Origin: Candidatus Methanohalarchaeum thermophilum
Lineage (GTDB): Archaea; Halobacteriota; Methanonatronarchaeia; Methanonatronarchaeales; Methanonatronarchaeaceae
Length of the DNA: 64,000 bases
Reading direction: 5' to 3'
Assembly: GCA_001914405.1 (NCBI GenBank)
Contig: MSDW01000002.1
Location: 310,001 to 374,000 of the forward strand
Under the pieces are notes generated by a model that did no database searches, was not told the origin of the DNA, and was given only the letters and a program-made list of their open reading frames with translations. The translations under genes and the position numbers were made by a program. Below are positions 17,130 to 63,933 of the stretch, in pieces (the stretch's first letter is position 1; each line of letters begins with the position of its first letter).

Positions 17130-17311
17130 AAAAACAAACCACTCTAACTTCTATCATCAACCAATAAAAACAAAAAACCATCTGTAAATACTCCAAGAAA
17201 CAACTAAAAACCACAAAAAACCTATATAAATTAAACCACTAGCTCAAATCAACCAATATCTTAAATAAACAGATAAAACTAACTTCAAAATAATTAATAC
17301 CTATTCTCTAT

Positions 17312-17737
17312 CTAAATAGTTGAGAGGACACCTTCCTAAATCTTTTGATTTAGGTAGTGTGATGAATCAACCATAATAGTTAAGTAGTTTTTAAACTAAT
17401 TAAAACTAAATTAGCAGTTGGTTGGTTTGTCTGCCTCTTAAACAAAAAGCAATCCCATCTCTAAAGACAAAATCCTTAGGTAAGCCCGAAACAACTTGGA
17501 AGTAGGGGTTCTAGTGGTTGGTGTGGAGCAACCATTGAGAAATAAGAGGAACCATTTAGGGTTAGTATATGGGAAAACTGTTCCCTAAGTCCAGGCTTCA
17601 CTCAGAGCAATAGATTCCCTGCTGACGGTGTAAATGAGACAAGCACCATGGAAAACAAACTCCCTTCGAGGATAAGGTCACAAGGAAGCCTCTCTTCCTC
17701 ACCGAACGGAAGTGAGGTTAGGCAGGGGTCACTTCAC
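17312..17737 (+). mobile_element. Gene-free IS-derived element with RNA-like interior (type 1)
   Basis: The left tip CTAAATAGTTGAGAGGACACC follows TCTAT, with a left palindrome CCTAAATC/GATTTAGG as in the tnpB elements. The right end is CCTCACCGAACGGAAGTGAGG with GGGGTCACTTCAC. Inside, GGTAAGCCCGAAAC...GGAAGTAGGGGTTCTAGTGG matches the 3' end of the tnpB element at 62451-63933 (about 63766-63800), so it retains a guide-RNA-like scaffold without any nuclease gene. Confidence 0.7.
17480..17737 (+). ncRNA. Omega-RNA-like scaffold in a nuclease-less element
   Basis: G/C-richer than the surroundings, with paired blocks such as GGTTGGTGTGGAGCAACC and CTTCCTCAC/GTGAGG. The start resembles the tnpB 3' region of another element in this window. 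If transcribed, its guide would be copied from 17738 onward, the 3' end of the nitroreductase gene. Prediction by similarity only. Confidence 0.4.
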
Positions 17738-17751
17738 TTCCTTATGTTATG

Positions 17752-18291
17752 TTATTTTTTGTTTTGTTTTTTGGGTTTGTTGCCGTGTTTTTTTCTGTAT
17801 ATTTCTCTTTTTTGGAGTTCTTTTTTTGTGTGTGGTTGTTTTTGTTTTTTTGGGTGTCCAATAGCTATGGCGCAAAGCACTCTATAGTCTTCTGGTATCT
17901 CTAGGAGGTCTTTGATTTTTTCTTCTGATTGTTTATCGTCTTCCGTTTTGTGGTCTCTTATCTGGATCCAGCATGCGCCTAAGCCTTGATTTGTTGCCTC
18001 TAACTGGATGTGTTCTGCGACAATAGAAGCGTCTTCAATCCATTCCCCTTCTTCTTTTGACGCTACCACGAATACTACTGGTGCTTCCGCTGCAAAATCA
18101 GCGTAAGGTGTTGCCTTCGAAATCACTTCCCTCTTCTCCGGGTTCTCTACCACAGTTATGGACCACGGATATAGTGCTCTAGCAGATGGAGAAAAAGCTG
18201 CAGCAGTTAATATCTCCTCAATCTTCTTCTCCTCCACTCCATCATCACTAAAACTTCTTACACTCCTCCTCTCCCTAATAGATTCAATCAT
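17752..18291 (-). CDS. Nitroreductase-family flavoprotein
   Basis: 179 aa. RRSVRSFSDDGVEEKKIEEIL at the N-terminus is the FMN phosphate-binding pattern, SPSARALYPWSITVV follows, and GACWIQIRDH and AIAIGHPKK are also family features. It uses FMN and NAD(P)H to reduce an unknown substrate. I start at ATG 18289-18291; six codons upstream in frame would reach into the right tip of the adjacent element (GTTGAC). Confidence 0.8.
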   Translation of the reverse strand: MIESIRERRSVRSFSDDGVEEKKIEEILTAAAFSPSARALYPWSITVVENPEKREVISKATPYADFAAEAPVVFVVASKEEGEWIEDASIVAEHIQLEATNQGLGACWIQIRDHKTEDDKQSEEKIKDLLEIPEDYRVLCAIAIGHPKKQKQPHTKKELQKREIYRKKHGNKPKKQNKK

Positions 18292-18304: not shown

Positions 18305-18741
18305 GTCAACTACCCCTACCAAAATCAAAGATTTTGGAAGGGGCTTGTGTATGATAGGACCAGACCACATGTACAATTTAATTATCGGTTTCCTCGGAGA
18401 ACTTCCGTTACACACAGAGAGGTTCTCGCTCATCTAGAACCGATTCCAAGGGCCAGTTGACCGTGACCCATCCACTTCTGGGAACCGAACATGGTCAGTG
18501 GTTCCGTCGGCTCTCGCGAGCACGCTTTTGCCCGAAGCGGAAAAGTTCAGGTTCTCAAGCATGGTAGCGTTCCCCGAAGAAGCGGTTTTCTCTCCTTTAA
18601 GAGAGTGCCTTAAACCAGGAGCCAACCATTCAAACCTATTGACTTTGACCAAAAATATGTGTTCTATAGCCATCTAAGCATTACCTCAATTCCTCTCCCA
18701 CCTAATCAGAGATTAGGAAGGAGTCTCCTTGAGGTGAAAAG
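18305..18741 (-). mobile_element. Gene-free IS-derived element with RNA-like interior (type 2, copy 1)
   Basis: On the minus strand: target TTCAT, left tip CTTTTCACCTCAAGGAGA with palindrome CCTAATC/GATTAGG, about 370 bp interior, then the right palindrome CCAAAATC/GATTTTGG and GGGGTAGTTGAC. The interior aligns with 42245-42629 (shared GGCACTC, GAACCT, GGTCAACTGGC, AATTAAATT blocks) while intervening bases vary, as in a structured RNA. A 79-codon open frame inside (18434-18673) is probably fortuitous. Confidence 0.75.
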
Positions 18742-18784
18742 ATGAAAAAAACATCTTAAAATTAATGTTTAAAACTAAAAGAGG

Positions 18785-62282: not shown

Positions 62283-62560
62283 TGCCTAAAAATAAGAACC
62301 ACAAAGTATAAATCTAACCCATATTTTTCCAAGTTTAGAAAGTTCATAGAAGAGATTAATTCAAAAGCTTTTGATAATTAGTTATTTTATCTATTAAATC
62401 CTATTATTTCTTGTTTATTAGTATTAAAAAGATTTTTGGTTATTATTTATCTATTTGACTGAGAAGACACCCTCCTAAATCTCTGATTTAGGTGGGTGAT
62501 GAATCAGTCTTCTGGAAAAACTTTAAATATAATCAGAAATATATGCTATATGTTAGGAAA

Positions 62561-63841
62561 ATGAAGAAGACATTGAGACAGAACCTACAAGGACTAACCA
62601 AACAAGAATACAAGATATTGAAAAAAATGAGCCACAAATCCAAAGACCTATACAACGAAACACTCTACAAAGTAAGACAATACTTCTTCAACAACGGAGA
62701 ATACCTAAGTTACTACGATAACTACGAACGACTTAAAGGAGAAAGCGAAAACTACAAAGTCTTACCCTCACAAATAGCTCAACAAACAATGAAACACGTA
62801 GACAAAGCCTTCAAATCATTCTTTAACTTAATCAAAGAAAAAAAGAGAAGGAAAATACGACAACGAAGCACACCCACCAAACTACCTAGAAAAAGACGGA
62901 CACTTTTCACTAATCTATCCAAACCAAAGCTTCCAAGTCAAAGAAAACCACATAAGAATCGGTGTCCCAAAAAATTTCAGAGAAAAATATGAGTACACCA
63001 AAAAAGAAATCCAGATAGATTTCACTTACGAAAAACTAAAACAAAGCCACATAGACATCAAACAACTACACATAATTCCAAGAAAAAAAGCACAATACTT
63101 CGAAAACAGAATAATTTACGAAGAAGAAAAAAAACCAATTGAGACAAAAGAAGATACTTGGTTAAGTATCGATTTAGGATTAGATAACCTAGCTACTTGT
63201 GTTGACCACCTTGGACGCTCATTCATCTTAGATGGGCGATTACTCAAATCGTACAACAAGTGGTGGAACAAAGAAGTAGATAAATTAAGTTACAATCCAT
63301 AAAAGACAAACAAGGCATCAAAGAGAATACTAAGAGAATAAATAAATTGTTCCGAGACCGAGATAACTACATACACGATTACTTAAATAAAGCAACCAAG
63401 GCAATCGTTGACTATTGCAGAGAAAATAAGATTGAAAAAGTATTTTGCGGAGATGGAAAAGGTTGGAAACAAGAAATCAATTTAGGTGATAACAACAACG
63501 AAAAATTTGTCCAAATACCCTTCGATAAGTTCAAGCAAAAACTCAAGCATAAACTAGAGTTCTATGATATAGAGTTCAAGTTAGTTAATGAATCCTACAC
63601 CAGCAAGTGCAGTTTCCTCGATAACGAACCAATAGAACACCACGAAAACTACACTGGTACAAGAATGGAAAGAGGCTTATTCAAAACAAATGACGGAGCC
63701 CTAATAAATGCTGACATAAATGGAGCACTAAACATCGCTAAAAAAGGATCAAAAGAAATAGATAAGGGTAAGCCCGAAACTTCGGGAGTAGGGTCTAGTG
63801 GCGTTGTAGACACGCCAAGGAGAATAAGAAAACCCCTATAG
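62561..63841 (+). pseudogene. tnpB: tnpB with two frameshifts, zinc-less type
   Basis: Frame 1 from ATG 62561 to about 62838 ([16 protein letters not shown]). Frame 2 holds Ruv[16 protein letters not shown] to 63300. Frame 3 from about 63290 has [10 protein letters not shown] and [14 protein letters not shown]. The first break is in seven As (one fewer joins [13 protein letters not shown]). The RuvC-II glutamate position is glycine, with a glutamate in HKLEFYD. The zinc-ribbon cysteines are replaced by [11 protein letters not shown]...RGLFKT, a known TnpB subgroup. Confidence 0.8.
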
Positions 63842-63933
63842 GTTAAGATACGGCTCAAACATAAGCGAGAACCTAATTCAAACTTCTCCTGAACCCCCCT
63901 ACCTAATCATTTGATTAGGAAGGGGTAGTTCAC
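63765..63933 (+). ncRNA. Predicted omega RNA region
   Basis: GGTAAGCCCGAAACTTCGGGAGTAGGG and the following G/C stems lie over the tnpB 3' end and run to the right tip. The same start recurs in the gene-free element at 17312-17737. Guide would be copied from 63934 on. Confidence 0.45.

Follow-up and report, generated by a model that had tools for sequence, protein, structure and literature searches.

An element of 426 bp at positions 17312-17737 (+ strand), in a stretch of 64,000 nucleotides from Candidatus Methanohalarchaeum thermophilum (hereafter, the window), has the ends of an IS200/IS605-type transposon, lacks a nuclease gene, and encloses a structure homologous to the RNA found at the 3' end of tnpB genes, followed by an RNA domain that is confined to nuclease-less copies. 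It belongs to a large and old family, and did not arise simply by deletion from the tnpB element located elsewhere in the window. By the features tested, the element is classed as a PATE, and it appears to work like an omega RNA gene, a likeness that we do not extend to full functional identity. We consider it probable that this non-autonomous PATE acts as a mobile gene for a guide RNA, with TnpA and TnpB supplied in trans.

Ends, insertion sites and copies of the element

Searching the organism's own genome (2.14 Mb in four contigs) with the DNA of the element returns 52 matches, approximately 40 of which are full or near-full elements with 70-91% identity. The motif TTTAT, whose background frequency is ~0.3%, precedes 33 of 40 copies; in the window copy the corresponding 5' flank, a counterpart of the transposon-adjacent motif (TAM), is TCTAT (17307-17311, +). 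When the copies are read in one orientation, their first base after TTTAT is C and nearly all end in TTCAC, a pattern that upholds the boundaries 17312 and 17737 proposed in the initial annotation. In addition, the joined flanks of one copy (L034) are ~79% identical to an unoccupied genomic site, and the match is unbroken across the TTTAT/TAA junction. This clean, empty paralogous site shows that the boundaries are correct and that insertion did not duplicate the target. Given precise ends, a flanking motif, and an empty site without duplication, these are therefore IS200/IS605-type elements.

Both ends belong to the same family as those of a related tnpB element at 62451-63933 (+), whose tnpB frame is disrupted, and the relationship postulated at the outset thus stands. 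The left-end subterminal hairpin CCTAAATC..GATTTAGG (17329-17359, +) is of a type shared by the two elements, with ~88-92% identity over ~50-60 nt, and the right end (17691-17737, +), which comprises a CCTCAC..GTGAGG hairpin and the terminal TCACTTCAC, shows the same GGGG..TTCAC arrangement. Subterminal palindromes occur at both ends without terminal inverted repeats, the short 5' target motif is not accompanied by a target duplication, and the 426 bp contain no conserved ORF and cannot encode a transposase. The combination of terminal inverted repeats and target duplication that is typical of classical MITEs was sought in the copies and is missing from them. PATEs are reportedly discussed for Geobacillus by Meers et al. 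2023. They are an established class in Haloquadratum (PMC3119063), and share with our element IS605-type hairpin ends and the lack of inverted terminal repeats, target duplication and protein.

A model of the extra RNA domain (R1) finds 123 genomic places that correspond to copies or relics, and decayed copies such as L041, L046 and L055 suggest that the family has long been active. The genome (G000) is very rich in IS200/IS605 elements: its 2.14 Mb hold 89 matches to the TNB domain of TnpB and 24 to the Y1 transposase, many of them broken.

A second nuclease-less IS200/IS605-type element resides at ~18305-18746 (-), just past a nitroreductase gene, which is thereby flanked by two nuclease-less elements. 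The four copies of this second element that were checked follow TTCAT and end in GTTGAC. Its six genomic copies are 98-100% identical, and it has therefore moved recently. In part, its interior can be matched to the 3' ends of a different tnpB family (L053/L054), with scores barely above those of shuffled sequences.

Conserved RNA structures and homology to tnpB 3' ends

The window contains exactly two occurrences of GGTAAGCCCGAAAC, at 17479 and 63767, where shuffled sequence would be expected to have none. These sites begin the scaffold core of the nuclease-less element (17479-17604, +) and its homologue at the 3' end of tnpB in the 62451 element (63767-63892, +), which has no extra domain. 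Our covariance model R2 had as its training set only the 3' ends of nine tnpB copies from the related family, that at 63767 among them. Over the whole window, R2 gives two matches below E 0.1. One is the 3' end of tnpB (63767-63892, E 1e-32); the other lies in the nuclease-less element and spans model positions 1-125 (17479-17604, E 2.9e-7). R2 also matches all 40 nuclease-less copies. The element thus has the homology in sequence and structure to the RNA at the tnpB 3' end that is expected of an omega RNA. The initial annotation had described an element that lacks the nuclease but retains an omega-RNA-like scaffold, and had proposed to abandon this view if no transcript existed and the similarity were confined to two short blocks. 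Because a model built from tnpB copies alone matches the full 125-nt scaffold, the similarity extends well past those blocks, and the description is borne out by this match and by compensatory changes. The absence of tnpB from the element is also confirmed. The further claim that the interior continues like the tnpB 3' end holds for the 125-nt scaffold but fails beyond it, where the ~88-nt extra domain is found instead.

Compensatory changes indicate which property of the scaffold is conserved. In an alignment made with R2, which leans towards the model, and drawn from related copies of one genome, 10 of 20 core pairs are altered on both sides (5.5 in shuffles), and there are 49 two-sided cells as opposed to 15.8 in shuffles; the signal is lost when pairing partners are slid. 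Alignment A4 was fitted to the structure, and the covariation of the extra domain described below likewise comes from related copies of one genome. Helices are nearly invariant within the tnpB copies alone, so the evidence of covariation comes from the nuclease-less copies. In 39 of these 40 copies the tnpB frame has a stop within the scaffold, and selection is therefore not on the protein. What is conserved is an RNA (or single-strand DNA) structure. Group I introns, RNase P and other Rfam families were rejected as identities for it, since Rfam matches are nil even at relaxed thresholds. Like the RAGATH-18-derived reRNAs of IS607 TnpB, this is a TnpB-associated structured RNA family; unlike them, the window element has no Rfam match, and those reRNAs adjoin TnpB (PMC11061315).

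A second conserved structure, missing from the earlier description, lies 5' to the scaffold. This hairpin (17413-17435, +) pairs GCAG with CTGC around a loop that begins with TTGGTTGG, and is followed by AAAAAGCAATCCCAT. Across copies the pattern GGCAG-TTGGTTGG..-CTGCC with AAAAAGCAATCCCAT is nearly invariant and the preceding stretch is variable. A search of viral contigs for the hairpin pattern gave no match. Upstream of it, about where a tnpB promoter would sit, is a TATA-like stretch, TTTTTAAAC (17388-17396, +), which is a putative archaeal-type promoter.

An RNA domain confined to nuclease-less elements

Between the scaffold core and the right end, the nuclease-less element carries an extra domain of ~88 nt (17603-17690, +) that is absent from the tnpB element. 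The domain consists of three helices: a closing stem, TTCCCTGT..ACAGGGAA, encloses two hairpins. Hairpin 2 takes the forms GACGGTG..CACCGT, ACCGAA..TTCGGT, TCAAG..CTTGG and CTGGG..CCCAG, and its loop, TGNATGAGACAAG, is nearly constant across these stem variants. RNAalifold produced a poor consensus from an unguided alignment of 43 sequences, and we therefore evaluated explicit structures with slide and shuffle controls. Among 24 distinct sequences, both sides are altered in 26 cells, where shuffles give 9.0. The covariation score reaches 0.227, compared with 0.117 in shuffles and 0.05-0.09 when partners are slid. Hairpin 2 is broken in copies L005 and L006, where it looks like a mispaired chimera of two subfamilies (GACGGTG with GCTTGGTGG), which suggests gene conversion between copies. 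The window copy has a C-A mismatch at the base of hairpin 2 and, with TCTAT in place of TTTAT, may be weakened.

The distribution of the extra domain divides the scaffolds of this genome. It directly follows the scaffold at 56 of 77 loci, and none of these 56 has a TNB domain of tnpB within 300 nt upstream, so the overlap with a tnpB gene that is usual for omega RNAs is absent from them. The other 21 scaffolds have no extra domain; in 15 a TNB domain is directly upstream, and at least 3 of the remaining 6 overlap tnpB fragments. Three R1 matches located 329-647 nt downstream of a TNB domain were examined as possible parts of tnpB elements and rejected: two are independent elements, one in each class (I and II), and the remaining one, L060, appears to be a partial relic. 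In this genome we found no tnpB that carries the extra domain. Because the domain occurs only in elements without the enzyme, these elements probably borrow TnpB. The tnpB elements also have no counterpart of the 5' hairpin, and we therefore rejected an origin of the element by simple deletion from the window's tnpB element.

The same split is observed in a second genus of the same family (G001), in which the scaffold of a tnpB on contig C122 lacks the extra domain, whereas several nuclease-less elements have it. In a further 391 genomes of the phylum the extra domain had no match, and searching 39 relatives besides G001 at the DNA level likewise returned nothing.

These observations bear on the simplest reading, in which the element is an ordinary PATE that needs only its ends and the segment between them is a passive leftover from tnpB. 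Precedents exist for nuclease-less elements in which, as in ours, a 3' segment of tnpB is retained (HqIRS71, PMC3119063; a PATE-like element in Halanaerobium, PMC7290912), and many tnpB copies in this genome have decayed. However, a passive remnant is expected to decay evenly, whereas here compensatory changes and constant loops persist across diverged copies, the 5' hairpin and the extra domain are conserved and are found in no tnpB copy, and the type is common to two genera. We regard this reading as unlikely. Unlike the PATEs described previously (PMC3119063, PMC7290912), the present family, with more than 100 copies and relics, has its tnpB-derived segment under RNA-level constraint and possesses two structures absent from all tnpB elements.

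A separate group of nuclease-less elements, class II (L083 and L098-L105), is 352-369 bp in length, follows TCTAT or TTTAT, and has the right-end hairpin CCCACAGCTTGCTGTGGG. Its members have the extra RNA domain in common with the elements described above, and their core is strongly different. One of them, L098, is inserted in a tnpB copy, and its rejoined flanks match relatives of that tnpB across a clean TCTAT junction.

Candidate partners and possible action in trans

The tnpB family whose 3' ends match the scaffold comprises ~18 loci, one of which is fully open (C2 143846-145180) and encodes 445 amino acids with OrfB_IS605 and TNB domains. The other loci, including that in the window, have stops, frameshifts or truncations, and the 3' ends of the other tnpB families sampled in the genome do not match R2. 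Genes for tnpA are present, at least some of them open, and therefore both proteins could be supplied in trans. The open TnpB (L043, 947-2284) reads through its own scaffold, such that its C-terminal tail (...SPEPPT) is encoded by the omega-RNA region. Its putative RuvC-II motif reads GDGKGW where other TnpBs carry Glu, and its zinc-finger cysteines look incomplete, with one evident by eye.

The scaffolds of nuclease-less copies score mostly 22-75 bits with R2, versus 125-160 for that of the open TnpB. This clear divergence means that the actual partner could be a different TnpB, or one that has been lost. One version of this idea is that the extra domain belonged to the omega RNA of a nuclease that is different or has been lost, and that the copies are fossils of its system. 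The divergence of the core agrees with it, as does class II, which shares the domain and lacks a strong match to sampled tnpB 3' ends. Yet no tnpB with the domain exists in the genome, and the domain is unmatched outside the family among the 391 other genomes of the phylum, which leaves this history quite improbable.

The scheme that we favor is modeled in part on ISDra2, whose TnpB RNA derives from the tnpB 3' end and the right end and takes ~16 nt of the flank as its guide; its TnpB has been proposed to cut the donor joint (TAM plus flank), after which repair reinstates the element (PMC8612924). TnpA acting in trans on the left and right hairpins would move our element to sites 3' of TTTAT-like motifs, as its ends and flanks suggest. 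An RNA of ~320 nt, starting near 17413 and extending through the right end, would fold into the 5' hairpin, the TnpB-type scaffold, the family-specific extra domain and the right-end hairpin, and its last part would be a guide transcribed from the 3' flank. After excision, TnpB in trans and this RNA would cut the empty donor site, and repair of the cut would restore the element. The candidate nuclease is the open TnpB, whose scaffold matches. Use of TnpB in trans would account for the RNA fold kept in copies without the protein, and an RNA made from the element's own promoter together with a resident TnpB would likewise explain the conserved ends and scaffold, the TTTAT/TTCAC logic and the high copy number.

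From the length of the ISDra2 reRNA (PMC8612924), the guide of the window copy is predicted to be the 16 nt at 17738-17753 (+). The spacer had been proposed to be the 3' end of the neighboring nitroreductase gene. The nitroreductase ORF stops at 17752-17754, and a guide of 16-20 nt (17738-17757) would therefore touch only the last bases of the ORF and be mostly intergenic. As with the ISDra2 reRNA, the scaffold corresponds to the region of the tnpB 3' end and terminates at the right end beside the flank, and the element lies 3' of a TAM-like motif (PMC8612924). It differs from ISDra2 in that it has no tnpB, its scaffold is ~88 nt longer, and it is predicted to require action in trans.

The same components could be turned against TnpB. 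As a decoy or inhibitor, the RNA would use the shared core to bind TnpB and the extra domain to prevent productive cutting, such that the element escapes or suppresses the nuclease. The location of the domain between the core and the right-end hairpin, and its presence only where tnpB is missing, are compatible with this, but nearly all full copies keep the right end and the TTTAT/TTCAC logic of a usable guide and target, and we judge inhibition very improbable.

A mobile guide-RNA gene served in trans is our preferred reading. We put forward more tentatively, though as a serious possibility, that the family is a promoter-driven set of guide RNAs that has split from its nuclease, in which dozens of dispersed guides with the extra domain are served by one or a few TnpBs in trans. 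On the same tentative footing, the element would be a parasite of TnpA and TnpB that homes by RNA guidance without coding for anything. Beyond the PATE papers, the literature searched, in which subscription journals are incompletely covered, yielded no description of nuclease-less elements forming a class with a longer omega RNA of their own.

Cleavage of the vacated donor site by TnpB is thought to prevent the loss of IS200/IS605 elements. Should a functional guide RNA persist in elements that lack TnpB, this means of retention would be open to hijacking in trans, and a single nuclease could act for guides dispersed throughout a genome. The extra domain, which is found only in nuclease-less copies, offers a handle on what an omega RNA needs for action in trans. 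For tool building, the family may provide a guide RNA that is longer, separate by nature, and equipped with a candidate promoter of its own.
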